Shown one piece after another: positions 9,717 to 43,500 of a stretch of 64,000 nucleotides of DNA. Both the position numbers and the translations under genes were made by a program. The first letter of the stretch is position 1; the number at the start of each line of letters is the position of its first letter. The stretch is from Benincasa hispida (Eukaryota; Streptophyta; Magnoliopsida; Cucurbitales; Cucurbitaceae). The notes under the pieces are model-generated. The model was not told the DNA's origin. It saw only the letters and a list, made by a program, of their open reading frames with translations, and did no database searches. The stretch covers positions 55,753,422 to 55,817,421 of the forward strand of contig NC_052351.1 in the NCBI RefSeq assembly GCF_009727055.1, written 5' to 3'.

Positions 9717-10536
9717 CCACCAACCTTCTTCGCTATCGTTCCCGTCCGCTGCTACACTATATCAGATCCAACGCTTAACTACCCAGCAACGTGAGCTTCT
9801 TCTGGCCACCGCTCGTCGCACCACTGCTGAAGCCCACGACCACCCACATCTGCTCAGATCTGGAGCCGCCAGTCTTCACCTTGCTATCAACTTAGCCGCC
9901 TTACCCGTCTCGTTGGCCAGTCGTACATCGATCTGCTCACCGGTGTCATCGCCGTCACTGAAGCATTTTTTTTCCTTTACGACCTATACAGTAGCTTTAA
10001 CGTCGAATTTCATGGTTACATTGGTAGGTGATTTAAGTCTTCCAAGGTTGTGATCAACGGGATTAACTATTTTATCAATTTTTGTTGGCCAACAGAATTG
10101 AGTTTTAGAACTAATTTTGGACCAAGCCATAATCCCGGTAATTTAAATTGGAGACATTTAAATAAATCTTGGTTAATTTGGTGATTGGAACGTTTTAGTA
10201 TTTAGATTTAAAATTTGGTTGATGTTTAGGCTTGATTTAGTATTCAAGATTTTTACGAAGTTTGAATTTTCTTGGATTAATTTTTGGGCTTTATTTGTGG
10301 TAAGTAGCTTTACTACTAAAACCGCCTTTGTGCCAGCCAAAATTGTTTTAAAATATTTTTTTGGTTTTTGCCAAATAGTTCTTAGAAAATATGTTTCCAT
10401 TGTTGAAGAGATTTTAGTTATGCATGGTATGAGTTTATGAGATGTTATTCAATGAATTCATGAATGTATATGATGTTATGTTATGATTTCATGAAAAAGG
10501 ATCATTTTATTGCATGTTTCTTGAAAGACCAAATTA

Positions 10537-19633: not shown

Positions 19634-21320
19634 TGATGCATTCTTTTATGTGGTGAAATTAATGAAATGAATTGTGGTGACGAGAATGCATTAAGCAATA
19701 AGTTTTCTCAGCAGAATCCAAGTATAAATCCCACTGAGTTTCCTGGTATATCCAGGGTCGAACTCAAGGATTAGGGAAAACGGTATGCGGTGATAATTTT
19801 TAAGAAGACTTTGGGGTAACCAATAAATCAAAGAGTTGTTTTGGGTTGTTGTTTGTTGTATAAAAAGAATGTGGCGATTTAAGAAAAGATGATTATACGG
19901 TAGATACACTGAGTATGCGGAGGTTGAGAAGGCCTTTAGCTAGCATTTCCCGAGAATGCGTCAATTTATGCGATCATGCTACACTTATGCGACAGCAAAT
20001 CATTTTCCAATACAAATGTGGTGCTCCCAGTTCTAGGACGCATGCGATGAATGCGATAATGTCCATAGAGCTTATTCCTAAGTCTCTACTTTTTGCCTGT
20101 GTGATGATGCGATGATGCAAGATGCACACAAAGACAAGGTGACCGCACACAATCATAACCTATCTCTAGGATGCATGCGATGTGTTAATAGCAAACAATG
20201 CTTATTCCTAAGCTCCTATCTCTTGATTATACGTTTTAATCTAACTCTCCCGAGCCTAGATTCTATTCTGACTTTTCCAAGCCTAGATTCTGTCCTTAGA
20301 CTACCATTCCGAGTATCTCTAATGGACGAATGATGCATACATAATACAAGATAATCGCATAGAATGAAGATCCCCAGTTATGCTAGCTAAGTGCTTCTCA
20401 ACCCATTCGACAGATTTAGCTACTCATGCATAGTAAACATAGAGTGAACAGATATAAAGAAGTAAATTCCATTTCTATAGATAAGTTTAAGTACAAAATG
20501 ACAATGGAAGATAAGGATAGAGAGTCTGGTAGCAATCCCTTGCTTCTCAAGGCTTTTACACTGTTAACTCTATTATGTTCAAAAGATATTCCTGCTTCCG
20601 CAGGAGTAGGAATCTCTCTGATCTTGACGCTTCCAGTACTCTTCCAAGTTCACCGGAACGATCTCTCGGCACAATCTTGCTTGTCTCGCTTCTGCCTTAA
20701 ATAAAAGAAAAACTAAGAACAAGACTATTTCTAACTATGGCGAAAATTATCTAACTGTCGAACTAGACGAACCCCTTCACTGAAGATTGCCTTTGGTATT
20801 TGTAGAGCTTCGGGGTGAAAGGCTTATTCTCTCTTATGATTGCACTGATGGGATGACATTAATTCTCTGTCTGATGCGTCGAATATTTGTCACCGAAAAG
20901 TTGAGTATACTTGCTACAGTAGTTCGTTGTGGCTTGTCAACTTAATTCGAAATCGATCGTCATCAGTTTTCTGTCCCATTGTGATTTATTATGCTTTTCA
21001 CCCAGATGCGCCCACCAAGTTACGTCGGCTCTATGTGGCAATCCTTCTTGAGCAGATATTTGCGAGCACAAATCAGCACAAAGCCTTGTAGTAACGTTGC
21101 GCTCGATCGTTGCTTTCTTGTGAACACATTTTACGTCTTGCGTCAACGCATATTCTGCACAAAAATACATAAGTTAACTGTTTTCATGCAATGGACGCAA
21201 TGCGACCGCAATATTATGAAATTAATGCTTTTTGGACGCAATTATATATATTTTATCAACGCAAACCTTCATTGTTTAATAACTTAGTACTGTAATAACA
21301 TGCATTTCTGCCTGTTATCA
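19634..21320 (-). mobile_element. E1 3' LTR (1687 bp)
   Basis: The plus-strand edges are TGATGCATTC and CTGTTATCA (TG...CA). It matches the 5' LTR over 32254-32935 and 32936-33026, for example the run with AGCAGAATCCAAGTATAAATC. About 900 bases (roughly 20320-21220) have no counterpart in the 5' LTR, which is therefore internally deleted. Confidence 0.9.
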
Positions 21321-21353
21321 CTACCCTATCACAGATGGCACATGGGCCAGCCC

Positions 21354-21391
21354 CTGTCTCTTATACACATCTAGATGTGTATAAGAGACAG
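21354..21391. other. Nextera mate-pair junction adapter (two Tn5 mosaic ends)
   Basis: The 19-base Tn5 mosaic end AGATGTGTATAAGAGACAG at 21373-21391 is preceded with no gap by its exact reverse complement at 21354-21372. The two form a perfect 38-bp palindrome. This is the circularisation junction of Nextera mate-pair libraries, not plant DNA. It yields the tell-tale false peptide start MCIRDR. The bases on either side may come from fragments far apart in the genome, so the join is suspect. Confidence 0.98.
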
Positions 21392-22255
21392 GATCGCGAT
21401 TCCTACCTTCGTTTTGGCTTGCCCCCACGTGTGTCATGCGGACATCCAACTACGAGTAGAATCCGATCGCAACGTTATGATTTTTTTTAAAGAGCTAAAA
21501 ATAGCAAGGTCGAAAATAAATACCTCACCTCCAAATTTAAAATGCGGCAATGTCCTCATTGTCAAAAGATTGAAAGAAGTCATGCGATATTCTTAGGAAG
21601 TTTGGTAAAGGGTCAGTTTGAAAGAAAACTAGTAGACCACTAACTTCTAGAAATATTTCATGAGGTGACTGTCCTAAAATTAAGTTGACTCTAGTGTACA
21701 TGAAAAAATAGAAGCATGTGTTTCATCATTGAAATCATAATTGGCAAAGAGAAAGCATGCGGTGACTTACTAAATTGATCAATGTTAAATGATTGCGGTA
21801 ATCAAAGAAGATGCAGTGATAAAAAATTTTAAAATCAAAATGCCATGCGATAGTGCAGAATTTGGAATAAAGTCAAGGAAAAATACAACCCCCAAATTTG
21901 TGTTGTCGCCCGCATTATTTGTTGATGCATCCTGCTTTGCGGCAATCTACTTTCTTTGGATTGCGGTGACGAAATAAAGTAGTTGCGTCTTCATGTAGTG
22001 CCTGCGCAATCGTTTACCTCGATTGTTTACACAGAAAATATTGAGAGGTTCAATTAATAAAAAAAACGAAGTTAACAAAATTTTTCTCTCTTTTTCTTTT
22101 TTTAAGAGAAGTAAAAGGCAGATAGATAAATGATAATTGAAACATCATAGTAGTGAGAGTTCATAAATCATAAGTAAGCAAAAGGATACTCCAGAAGACT
22201 TGCGCCCCAGATGATTTTCTATCACATGCCAGTGTAGGGGCCACTCCATTTTCCT
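21392..22255 (-). other. E1 3' spacer between pol end and 3' LTR
   Basis: Non-coding in both directions. The phrase TTTTGGCTTGCCCCCACGTG with 'GTCATGCGGACATCCAA' recurs at 34240-34275 in the 3' region of E0, so the two elements are related. No envelope-like frame is seen, although some Athila elements carry one here. The minus-strand bases before the LTR (TGATAGGGTAG) are the likely but weak polypurine tract. Confidence 0.6.
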
Positions 22256-28229: not shown

Positions 28230-28949
28230 CTAGAGGAGGAGAACCCATCTAATCAGCCTCGGCTTCGCGTCCTTCTTTGTTATCAAATATTTTATCGCCG
28301 AATGGTCAGTATGGATGACTACTTTTGTTCCCAGCAGATATGCTCTGAATTTCTCTAACGCAAATATTATCGCAAGCAGCTCTTTTTCTGTGGTGGTGTA
28401 GTTAGTCTGAGCAGGGTTTAAAGTCTTACTTGCATATGCGATGGGATGTAGTATTGTTTTTATCTTCTGTACTAGCACTGCTCCCATCGCATACCCGCTC
28501 GTATTGCACATTACTTCAAAGGGAAGAGTCCAATCTGGCGCGATCAATATGAGCACAGTCATTAGTGCGTTCTTTAAAATCATGAATGTGTTGCGGCATT
28601 TATCATCAAAGTCAAATTTCTTATCGGCTTTCAACAACGCACTCAGTGGTCGTGCTATTTTTGAGAAATATTTGACAAAACGTCTGTAAAATCCGACATG
28701 CCCCAAGAAACTCCTTACAACCTTTACACTTGTTGGAGGTGGGAGCTTTTCAATTGCTTTCAATTTTTTCCTTGTCACCTCCAAACCGTCCCGAGATACC
28801 TTGTGCCCAGCACAATGCCCTCCTTCACCATAAAATGCATTTCTCCCAGTTAGAGACGAGGTCTGTCTCCTCACATTCTTTTCAATATTCTTCTCCAAGT
28901 TGGCAAGACAGACTTCGTACGTGTACCCATATACAAAGAAGTCGTCCAT
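28230..28949 (-). pseudogene. E1 reverse transcriptase C-terminal part and RNase H
   Basis: This is the longest RT/RNase H open piece (239 codons). It begins at MDDFFVYG, containing the catalytic DD, and runs through [15 protein letters not shown] (RT connection) into RNase H with TEKELLA (catalytic Glu) and HTDHSA (catalytic Asp). The first RNase H Asp is lost: CNTSGYAMG stands where related elements have C-D-A-S. The block after the catalytic DD is also scrambled. It is inactive. Confidence 0.85.
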
Positions 28950-28987
28950 GAATATTTCTACAGAGTCATGAATATTTCTACAGAGTC
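28948..28987. repeat. 20-bp perfect tandem duplication in E1 RT
   Basis: ATGAATATTTCTACAGAGTC occurs twice back to back (28948-28967, 28968-28987). The duplication adds 20 bases and breaks the RT frame just 5' of the catalytic DD. Confidence 0.9.
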
Positions 28988-29362
28988 TTCAAGATATTCT
29001 GAAAGGATAGCCATCATGCACCTTTTGGAAAGTGCTCGCGCATTACAGAGGCTGAACGGCATGCGGTTGAAAAGCAAAAGTTCCATACGTGCAGAATGAA
29101 TGTGGTCTTTTCCTGATCTTCGGAAGCAATCATGATCTGATTATAACCGCATACCCATCCAAAAAAATAGTAGAAGTCATTTCCAACTAGCCGATCCAGC
29201 AATTTGGTCAATTGAAAGTGTAAAGGGAAATGATCTTTCTTCGTTGCCGCATTCAGCATTGCGGTAGTCCCATGCAAATACGCCATCCGATGATGATTCT
29301 TTGCAGTATCAACTCGTTATTTACGTTGGGACTACCGTCATCCCACCTTTTTTCGGCACGCA
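28988..29362 (-). pseudogene. E1 reverse transcriptase N-terminal part
   Basis: The minus-strand frame 29286-29014 reads ATKKDHFPLHFQLTKLLDRL and GYNQIMIASEDQEKTTF, the fingers/palm segment of Ty3/gypsy RT. The piece between 29287 and 29362 shows VNNELI and GWRICM in shifted frames. Frameshifts separate it from the protease and from the DD-containing part. Confidence 0.8.
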
Positions 29363-30514
29363 CTACACGGGGCTAACCCACGTGCTGTCTGCTATTGGAT
29401 AGATGATGCCCGCATCTAACCACTTGATTATCTCCTTCTTAACGGCCTCTTTCATCACAGGGTTGAGTCTGCGCTGATGTTCGATCGATCCTTTGTGGTT
29501 TTCTTCGAGACGAATTTTATGCATATAGTATGCGAGGCTAATTCCTCGAATGTCTGCGAGCGTCCAACTAATTGCTTGCACATATTTTCTCAGAATGCTC
29601 AGCAGCGCATTCTCTTGGTTTTCATTAAGTTCAGTGGAAATGATTACCGGTAACTTTTTATTCTGCCCCAGAAACGTATACTTTAGGTGGTTAGGAAGGG
29701 TCTTCAGCTCTATTATTGGTGGTTTTTTTAAGGACGGTTGCATTATTTTTCTTTCTTCATTTACTGTTGGCTCTTCTTCCTGGGTTGCGATCATCTCATC
29801 TTCCTTGTTTGTTTTTTCTATGATTGCATTGCATGCGACAATGGATGTGATCGCATCCTCATCTTCGTTTTCGTCTTCAGGCTTTTCTTCTTCATTCAAA
29901 CTTTGTTCTTCGTCAGATTCATTCAGGTCTTCTTCATCAGGATACTTCATGGCAAGGATAATGTCAAACTTTAGCTTCTGTCCATTCGCACTCAAGGTGA
30001 TCTCTCTTTTGTGCACATCAATCTGGGCATGCTCGGTTGATAAAAATGGTCGCCTCAGGATGATTGGCACATCCTTGTCGGCTTCGTAGTCCAAGATGAT
30101 GAAGTCGACTGGTAATATAAATTTGTCAATTGTGACCAACATGTCCTTCACCTTCCCCTCTAGATGCACCAGAGATCTATCGGCTAATTGGAGAGTCACT
30201 GTCGTAGGCGCAAGTTGCCCCACATTTAGCTGCTTAAAAATTGACAGCGACATCAAGTTGATGCTGGCTCTAAGATCACACAACGCTTGCCCGATGTACA
30301 ATCCTCCAATGGAGCAAGGTATAGTAAAACTCTCAGGATCGCGCATCTTCGGTGGGATTATCGATTTTAAGCTCTGCGTCAAAGCCACCGTGACAAACTT
30401 ACCAGTGCCTCTCTTCTTGGTCACCATATCCTTGAAAAACTTCGCATATGCGGGCATCTCCTCAATCGCTTCAGTGAACGGAATATTAATATGCAATTGT
30501 TTTAACATAGTCAT
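29363..30514 (-). pseudogene. E1 protease and linker into RT
   Basis: Open for 383 codons on the minus strand. It contains ALCDLRASINLMSLSIF in the place of the retropepsin active site. Related elements have D-L-G-A-S, so the catalytic Asp is kept but the Gly is Arg, which is expected to cripple the enzyme. Downstream are an acidic Glu/Asp-rich linker and the start of RT (WLDAGIIYPIADSTWVSPV). Opposite-strand open frames over this stretch are shadows. Confidence 0.85.
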
Positions 30515-30577
30515 GAAGCATTGGTACTATACCTCGTCATTCTTCTTCTTTCCGAGTCGCTGTGGGAAAGGTGGCAA

Positions 30578-32231: not shown

Positions 32232-32248
32232 CCCCGACAACGGCGCCA
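32232..32248 (-). promoter_or_regulatory. Primer-binding site of E1, Asp tRNA type
   Basis: The minus strand reads TGGCGCCGTTGTCGGGG five bases after the LTR end. This is the primer-binding sequence typical of Athila/Tat elements, complementary to the 3' end of Asp tRNA. It fixes the minus orientation. Confidence 0.9.
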
Positions 32249-32253
32249 AAACT

Positions 32254-33026
32254 TGATACGTTCTTTTATGTGGTGAAATTAATGAATGAATTGCAGTGAC
32301 GAGAATGCATTAAGCAATAGTTTTCTCAGCAGAATCCAAGTATAAATCCCACTGAGTTTCCTGGTATATCCAGGGTCGAACTCAAGGATTAGGGAAAACG
32401 GTATGCGGTGATAATTTTTAAGAAGACTTTGCGGTAACCAATAAATCAAAGAGTTGTTTTGGGTTGTTGTTTGTTGTATAAAAAGTATGTGGCGATTTGA
32501 GAAAATATTGATTATGCGGTAGATACACTGAGTATGCAGAGGAATGGGTTGAGAAGGCCTTTAGCTAGCATTTCCCGAGAATGCGTCAATCTATGCGATC
32601 ATGCTACACTCATGCGACAGAAAATCATTTTCCAATGCAAATGTGGTGCTCCTAGTTCTAGGACGCATGCGATGAATGCGATAATGTCTATAGAGCTTAT
32701 TCCTAAGTCTCTACTTTTTGCCTATGCGATGATGCAAGATGCACACAAAGGCAAGGTGACCACACACAATCATAACCTATCTCTAGGATGAATGCGATGC
32801 GTTAATAGCAAATAGTGCTTATTCCTAAGCTCCTATCTCTTGATTATGTGTTCTAATCTGACTCTCCCGAGCCTAGATTCTATCCTGACTTTTCCAAGCC
32901 TAGATTTTGTCCTTAGACTACCCTCCCGAGTATCTTTTTGGATGCAATTATATATATTTTATCAATGCAAACCTTCATTGTTTAATAACTTAGTACTGTA
33001 ATAACGTGCATTTCTTCCCGTTATCA
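32254..33026 (-). mobile_element. E1 5' LTR, internally deleted (773 bp)
   Basis: The plus-strand edges are TGATACGTTC and CCGTTATCA. It is close to the 3' LTR over both ends but jumps at about 32936, from GAGTATCT straight to TTTTGGATGC. About 900 bases present in the 3' LTR are missing. Confidence 0.9.
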
Positions 33027-33909: not shown

Positions 33910-34850
33910 CACTCCCAAATTTAGAATCATGCTTGTCCTCAAGCATGCCTTATACTAAGGAAACTCAAAACTTGCCCTCTGACTTTTCCTTTGCGTTGAT
34001 CAGCTTCTCAGAATATAATCCACATGCACTTCTAGCCTGGGTAGCAACATTTTCCTCTAACTTAGCCACTTCTTCTAAGAAATATTGTCTAAGTTTTAAT
34101 TCTAGCAAGCCTCCACTCAAAACTTTTTACTCATCGCAGACAACTTTACTTTTAGCTTTTTACAATGCAAACGTTCAAAACGATTTAAAACTTTGCGACT
34201 CATTATTAGATTAAGGCATTGAACCTGGCTATGCTCTTCGCTTTGGCTTGCCCCCACAGGTGTCATGCGGGCATCCAATTTCAGTTGCGTGCCATATTCA
34301 ACTCAATTCTTATCTTAGCTAAATTTAATTTACGTCAAAAAGAAGAGTTGTCATTACGCGTTAATTCTGGTCACCTACTTTCATTTTGACTTATCTGCAT
34401 GGGTGTCAGGCGAAGTATCCAACTATGGGTAGGTACCTTTCACAACTTAACTCTTATCAGCTTGGATTTCTCGTTTGTGCTAACAATGGAGCTGTTATTA
34501 TGATCATTTTTTTAAGCCTTATCGCAATGTTTATATTGAATGCATTTGCTCGATCCAATCCCACCCCCAAATTTAGAGAGTGGCAAGGTCCTTGCCAGAA
34601 AGCTAAAGACAAAATTGTTTTGAGATGCGGTAAAAGAAGTTTGAGCAGAGGTCTGCACACAATAAAATTTAAGACTGACAAACTTTGAAGAAGCTACTAA
34701 AGCGAGGTGAGCCATGCGACCTTTAGTGAGTGGATTTAGTGAATTTACATAAGTATCATGCAAGGATTTACTCTTTATTTAGGATTCCTTCATCCCAACG
34801 CATACCTTAGGCATTCAATACTTAGATCTTTCTTTGAATTGTATGTCTCA
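33910..34850 (-). other. 3' internal remnant of element E0
   Basis: The minus-strand sequence next to the LTR is CTAAATTTGGGAGTG, a plausible polypurine tract. The phrase CTTTGGCTTGCCCCCACAGG with GTCATGCGGGCATCC matches the E1 3' spacer at 21410-21445. No pol is seen; the element is cut off by the family Z fragment at about 34850. Confidence 0.6.
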
Positions 34851-43199: not shown

Positions 43200-43500
43200 T
43201 CTGCTCAAAACTCGATGCTCGATGCTCGATGCTAAAAAACTCGATGCACAATGCCATACTTCATGGTAATTGATGCGTTTATTCGATGATATTTCATGAA
43301 ATACTTGATGCACGATGCCATACTCGATGGTACTCGATGCAACTCGATGCTATTTTGTGAAATACTCGATTCTCGATGCCATACTCGATGGTACTCGATG
43401 CAACTTGATGGTATTTTGTGAAATACTCAATGCTCGATGCCATGCTCGATGCTACTCGATGCAATTTGATGGCATACTCGATGCTTGATGATACTCAACG
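43200..43500 (+). repeat. CTCGATGC minisatellite, 61-bp unit
   Basis: GAAATACTYGAT starts at 43298, 43359 and 43420, exactly 61 bases apart. Within each unit the 8-10-bp word ACTCGATGC is itself repeated. The 5' part (43200-43260) has directly abutting CTCGATG copies. Confidence 0.92.

Follow-up and report, generated by a model that had tools for sequence, protein, structure and literature searches.

A Nextera-type mate-pair junction adapter in a wax gourd chromosome, one of about ten thousand copies in the assembly

The genome assembly of Benincasa hispida (wax gourd) contains, at positions 21354-21391 of the stretch of DNA analysed here, a 38-base sequence that is virtually certain to be an adapter artefact. 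We refer to the whole stretch, 64,000 nt long, as “the window”. Untrimmed reads almost certainly brought it into the assembly as the junction adapter of a Nextera-type (tagmentation) mate-pair library, and it was very likely put on by tagmentation rather than by ligation. The join that it marks is probably not contiguous in the plant. A first-pass annotation, made from the letters alone, had recognised a Nextera mate-pair junction adapter here. That identification is borne out by a printed adapter with the identical 38 bases, by 9,991 copies across the assembly, by a Tn5-like bias in the flanks of those copies that were sampled, by short-circle duplications at copies elsewhere, and by the occurrence of the same 38-mer in bacteria.

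The sequence at 21354-21391 is exactly CTGTCTCTTATACACATCT followed by AGATGTGTATAAGAGACAG, i.e., a head-to-head pair of Tn5 mosaic ends (“mosaic end” is the name of the 19-base end of a Tn5-type transposon). Neither 19-mer half has a mismatch and no base lies between them, as expected for the perfect 38-bp palindrome of mosaic end and reverse complement that was originally described. When up to three mismatches are allowed, the two adapter halves are still the sole matches to the 19-mer in the window; shuffled controls (n=100) gave a mean of 0.04 matches and a maximum of 1, never two. Reading from the ATG at 21375 yields the peptide M C I R D R. The annotation had given this translation and had called the peptide a known false one; the translation is right, whereas neither MCIRDR nor MCIRDS was found in the literature searched. 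Features in and around the site are collected in Table 1.

Table 1. Adapter halves, flanks and retrotransposon features in the window, in order of position.
Feature	Coordinates	Strand	Basis or remark
Left LTR copy, piece 1	19634..20318	-	93% to 32254-32935
Left LTR copy, piece 2	21228..21320	-	95% to 32934-33026; homology stops 33 bases short of the adapter
Left flank, 75 bases identical to a copy ending at C3:9210146	21279..21353	+	same-assembly comparison
Putative Ty3/gypsy-type reverse transcriptase codons, YPITDGTWASP	21321..21353 (33 bases; codons read at 21322-21354)	+	joined to LTR piece of opposite orientation
Tn5 mosaic end, junction adapter half 1	21354..21372	-	exact match; reads AGATGTGTATAAGAGACAG on the minus strand
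Tn5 mosaic end, junction adapter half 2	21373..21391	+	exact match to AGATGTGTATAAGAGACAG
Right flank, high-copy repeat	21392..21461	+	70-base query; 1562 candidate places, 40 scored
RNase H	within 28230-28988	-	Pfam search
Retroviral-type protease	within 29363-30526	-	Pfam search
PBS-like motif, TTTTGGCGCCGTTGTCGGGG	32232-32251	reads leftwards	motif match
Right LTR copy, part pairing with left	32254..33026	-	pairwise alignment

The assembly carrying the window comprises 912,946,352 bases (912.9 Mb) in 1791 contigs. Screening it for the 19-base mosaic end, a check that the first-pass annotation had itself put forward, returned 10,766 forward and 10,764 reverse copies (exact matches only), against none for a control in which the 19-mer was read backwards. 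The complete 38-mer is present exactly at 9,991 places, equivalent to one per 91 kb. From base composition, ~0.013 copies of the 19-mer and 5e-14 copies of the 38-mer would be expected by chance in 912.9 Mb. With 9,991 complete 38-mers, 19,982 of the 21,530 19-mers sit in full pairs. Unpaired 19-mers in the loci that were fetched, which amount to 3 distinct cases, belong to pairs whose second half is altered or breaks off once 15-18 bases have matched. Copies also cluster: among the first 50 places listed, all of which are on contig C1, 9 of the 49 distances between neighbours are 300 bases or less, versus 0.12 expected; three of the nine belong to an array whose period is exactly 167 bases. 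At one locus on the same contig (L024, G000:C1:2861251-2861789), four complete adapters recur with a period of exactly 167 bases and an identical 129 bases in between, which is apparently an artificial tandem array produced when one short circle was read several times. Runs of N lie within 1.6 kb of the nearest adapter in L035 (1-2984) and L039 (6162-6786); the other 34 of the 36 stretches inspected have no N.

The bases immediately beside the adapter were compared at 40 distinct plant sites (80 flanks), these being the 46 sites in the window and loci L009-L043 minus 6 with repeated flanks; 39 of the 40 lie on a single contig, within its first 5.6 Mb. In these 80 flanks, G is found at position 1 in 44% of cases (background 18%), C/T at position 4 in 78% (background 50%), A/T at position 5 in 80% (background 63%), A/G at position 6 in 77% (background 50%), and C at position 9 in 38% (background 18%). 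At positions 1, 4, 5, 6 and 9 the plant profile thus agrees with the published Tn5 target preference, given as AGNTYWRANCT in the part of PMC3046479 available to us. The T at position 3 and the A at position 7 of this motif are not enriched in the 80 plant flanks (30% and 29%, versus a background of 32%). According to the same available part of PMC3046479, tagmentation data resemble the Tn5 motif only weakly. A very similar profile was obtained from 144 distinct bacterial sites (288 flanks), counted as those flanked on both sides by 40 bases or more among the bacterial stretches described below. Plant and bacterial log-odds are correlated (r 0.78 over 36 cells), and plant flanks scored with a matrix built from the bacterial flanks have a mean of 1.09, compared with -1.25 for random plant 9-mers (p 1e-23). 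With Tn5 scores at the 55th and 80th percentile, the two flanks in the window are unremarkable, so the bias belongs to the set of sites rather than to this one.

This bias bears on how the adapter was attached. Without any transposase, the same 38 bases could have served as a ring adapter joined by ligation to fragments from mechanical shearing. Exactly such a use has been published: the accessible portion of PMC7357533 prints the identical 38 letters as a circularisation adapter ligated to sheared fragments of ~4 kb. Shearing, however, should yield no target profile. Because a Tn5-like bias is present in both the plant and the bacterial flank sets, we regard a ligated ring adapter as ruled out in practice and give it only a very small chance of being correct; attachment by tagmentation is the reading that we retain.

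A second signature concerns the larger-scale arrangement of sequence around the adapter. In 12 of the 40 plant sites, the sequence that ends at the adapter recurs right after it (X-adapter-X) over 54-213 bases, with 98-100% identity in 10 of the 12 and 92-93% in the other two. No such recurrence was seen at any of 48 plant pseudo-sites located 900 bases away, from which those with insufficient clean flank had been excluded. Bacterial sites behave alike, with X-adapter-X at 27 of 144 sites (17-158 bases) and at none of 153 pseudo-sites. X-adapter-X is the form expected from reading once round a short DNA circle. At L029, L039 and L040, the right flank opens by repeating, at 88.5-99.6% identity, sequence whose start lies 437, 1080 and 671 bases, respectively, to the left of the adapter, an order that a longer circle would give. 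The remaining plant sites, the window included, lack both circle forms at the thresholds used, or show repeats that are no more than short or offset, and represent joins whose kind is uncertain. X-adapter-X was looked for at 21354-21391 and was not found. A circle of the 2-8 kb size class would place a copy of the right flank 2-8 kb upstream of C3:9210146, the candidate source of the left flank (see below). Such a copy was sought, and there was none among the 40 places scored out of 1562 candidates, which counts against a circle from that source. Near position 4479 of L037, a 112-base exact duplication lies at the adapter, and ~3.2 kb of sequence to its left and right are 87% similar.

The 38-mer is also found, letter for letter, outside plants. 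Bacterial genome contigs contain it in at least 120 stretches (L048-L167), with up to 4 copies in a single 8-kb stretch; the 80 stretches listed represent at least 17 assemblies, judged by accession prefix, e.g., of Enterococcus, Collinsella, Scytonema and Ideonella. Seven stretches of viral contigs carry it as well (L168-L174), and in two of these (L170 and L174) it lies 10 bases or less from the contig end. These occurrences bear on the idea that the palindrome is natural, i.e., that an inverted-repeat element of very small size, or a pair of Tn5-type ends on its own, has spread in the plant genome. Many copies at dispersed sites and Tn5-like bias in their flanks are what such an element would show, and searches for exact matches miss copies changed in both halves, so that they do not show how far the copies differ. 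An identical 38-mer in bacterial assemblies, at the density noted above, speaks against a plant element, as does its structure: with no base between the two ends, there is nothing to move. Nor is there the expected target duplication. An exact overlap of 4-39 bases between the flanks is absent at 39 of the 40 plant sites, the window included, the sole overlap being one of 10 bases at one site; specifically, no exact flank overlap corresponding to a 9-base target duplication was found at the window site. Lastly, duplications of up to 213 bases in the X-adapter-X form have no counterpart in simple transposition. Together, the bacterial 38-mers, the empty interior and the missing target duplication at this site rule out a natural palindrome or mini-transposon for our purposes, and we consider it extremely improbable.

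A junction adapter of tagmentation would arise and persist in the following way. Transposase would cut genomic DNA and add the 19-base mosaic end to each fragment end; when a fragment is circularised, its two ends would meet as the 38-base palindrome. If reads crossing this junction are used unclipped, those from very short circles would give X-adapter-X, whereas those from longer circles, or the ends of two contigs that overlap via the palindrome, would give a chimeric join. The adapter could have entered the assembly when jump reads were used to patch gaps or to join contigs, and at this site mate-pair reads may have filled a scaffold gap. What is published on the wax gourd genome can be set beside these steps. 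The B227 assembly, as described in the sections of PMC6856369 available to us, totals 913 Mb in 2197 scaffolds, with 397 of them placed on 12 linkage groups; it was built with ALLPATHS-LG, and gaps were filled with PBjelly. Its five mate-pair libraries (2 and 8 kb) were prepared by the “Illumina standard protocol”; the name Nextera does not appear in those sections.

The window site lies in a minus-strand LTR retrotransposon of Ty3/gypsy type. We infer the minus orientation of the LTRs from the PBS-like motif (Table 1; TTTTGGCGCCGTTGTCGGGG is presumably of the primer-binding-site type), together with the minus-strand protease and RNase H. Between its two alignable pieces, the left LTR copy has 909 extra bases (20319-21227) that are missing from the right copy (at 32934/32935). 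Elsewhere in the window there are tandem repeats at 43219-43465 and 610-1007, with units of ~61 and ~136 bases, respectively. The adapter had been described as sitting 34 bases inside the inner edge of an LTR. As a distance from the end of the alignable pair, at 21320, this is right; that 21320 is an inner edge is unsupported, because a 43-base segment on the other side of the adapter (21407-21449) aligns at 91% with 34236-34278, outside the paired part of the right LTR copy.

The 33 bases to the left of the adapter read as plus-strand reverse transcriptase codons and not as LTR. We base this reading on a motif match to the window's own pol, in which a similar reverse transcriptase motif, YPIADSTWVSPV, lies on the minus strand and ends at 29363. 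The same joint between LTR piece and putative reverse transcriptase is found without an adapter at C3:9209997-9210146, and there it continues into reverse transcriptase (copy L046, G000:C3:9210090-9210500). A Pfam search with the 59-residue reverse transcriptase piece of L046 returned no family, and a PDB search with the same piece returned only two matches, both of them weak (E 0.57 and 0.58); a reverse transcriptase is among the two. A tRNA primer-binding site was considered for the 33 bases and was dropped, since the C3 copy continues into reverse transcriptase. The joint of a minus-strand LTR piece to a plus-strand reverse transcriptase, at 21297-21353 in the window, may be a real rearranged element that is shared with C3:9.21 Mb, or it may be a second misassembly.

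The left flank also changes in character as it nears the adapter. The window and the C3 copy have 14 differences in 21156-21278 and none in 21279-21353. The 21278/21279 boundary was picked after the data had been seen; shifted by one base to the left, it gives p 0.011 in a test. Judging from the sequence, 21279-21353 was probably patched in as read from the C3 copy or from one identical to it.

Another view is that the adapter was simply dropped into an otherwise contiguous and complete sequence, with nothing lost between its flanks. The flanks, joined without the adapter, were compared with the assembly, and 40 of 6250 candidate places were scored, 39 besides the window. Touching flanks were found in none of these 39 scored relatives. 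In three of the 39, the left LTR piece and the right flank are arranged and oriented as they are in the window, as a simple drop-in would have it, yet they stand 86, 283 and 414 bases apart, versus 26-27 genomic bases in the window. The others have a single half, the left in one relative and the right in 35. The single copy that has the left flank in full runs on into putative reverse transcriptase, and the change from 14 differences to none against the C3 copy is likewise at odds with a simple drop-in. With 40 places scored out of 6250, a touching pair elsewhere is possible. Weighing these points, we consider a simple drop-in unlikely, although far less so than the natural palindrome or the ligated ring adapter.

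The right flank itself is highly repeated. Among the 38 scored relatives with the right half, 35 have an extra upstream copy of part of the right flank, mostly ~70 bases off (44-133); no such copy was reported for the window in the same comparison. The extra copies in relatives place the adapter in or beside a repeat array that would be hard for an assembler, and some repeat sequence has probably been lost at this site. The first-pass annotation had warned that the two sides may not adjoin in the genome, and both the relatives without touching flanks and the continuation of the full-left-flank copy into putative reverse transcriptase bear out that caution. The adapter at 21354-21391 is confirmed as an artefact, and its two sides are to be treated as non-contiguous.

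Because the same adapter occurs at thousands of other places in the assembly, joins across it cannot be trusted there either. On balance, we expect that perhaps 30% of the roughly ten thousand adapter junctions (12 of the 40 tested) are false tandem duplications and that the rest are joins of uncertain truth, the joint of left LTR and reverse transcriptase being a real rearrangement or a second misassembly. Gene models, the dating of LTR elements and counts of small duplications would then be biased once per 91 kb. This is a problem of assembly quality and not of biology, but it is a large one, at 9,991 places in a chromosome-scale assembly. Anyone annotating genes, dating retrotransposons by their LTR pairs or counting small tandem duplications will run into the adapter every ~91 kb on average. 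The two tests used here, for Tn5 bias and for X-adapter-X, can be applied to any assembly, and they separate tagmentation adapters from natural palindromes.

Three known systems share sequence with the site. Real Tn5-type transposon ends have the same 19-base end sequence, but here nothing lies between the ends and this site has no target duplication. The ring-adapter circularisation library has the identical 38 letters; its fragments, in the portion of PMC7357533 at hand, are sheared and ligated, for which no Tn5 bias would be expected, whereas a bias is present here. The Nextera mate-pair adapter, made by Tn5 tagmentation, agrees in its 38-base structure, a 19-base unit forward and then as its reverse complement, in the Tn5-like flank bias of the set, and in the short-circle form at other copies. 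As set out in the available text of NextClip (PMC3928519), Nextera mate-pair transposase adds a 19-base adaptor to the fragment ends, circularisation joins the two as one forward and one reverse-complement copy totalling 38 bases, and in the example given there unclipped reads lowered the scaffold N50. The sequence at 21354-21391 is thus an artefact of known kind and mechanism, and it is the scale that stands out: unlike Nextera adapters in reads, the copies described here, some ten thousand of them, sit in finished chromosome sequence.
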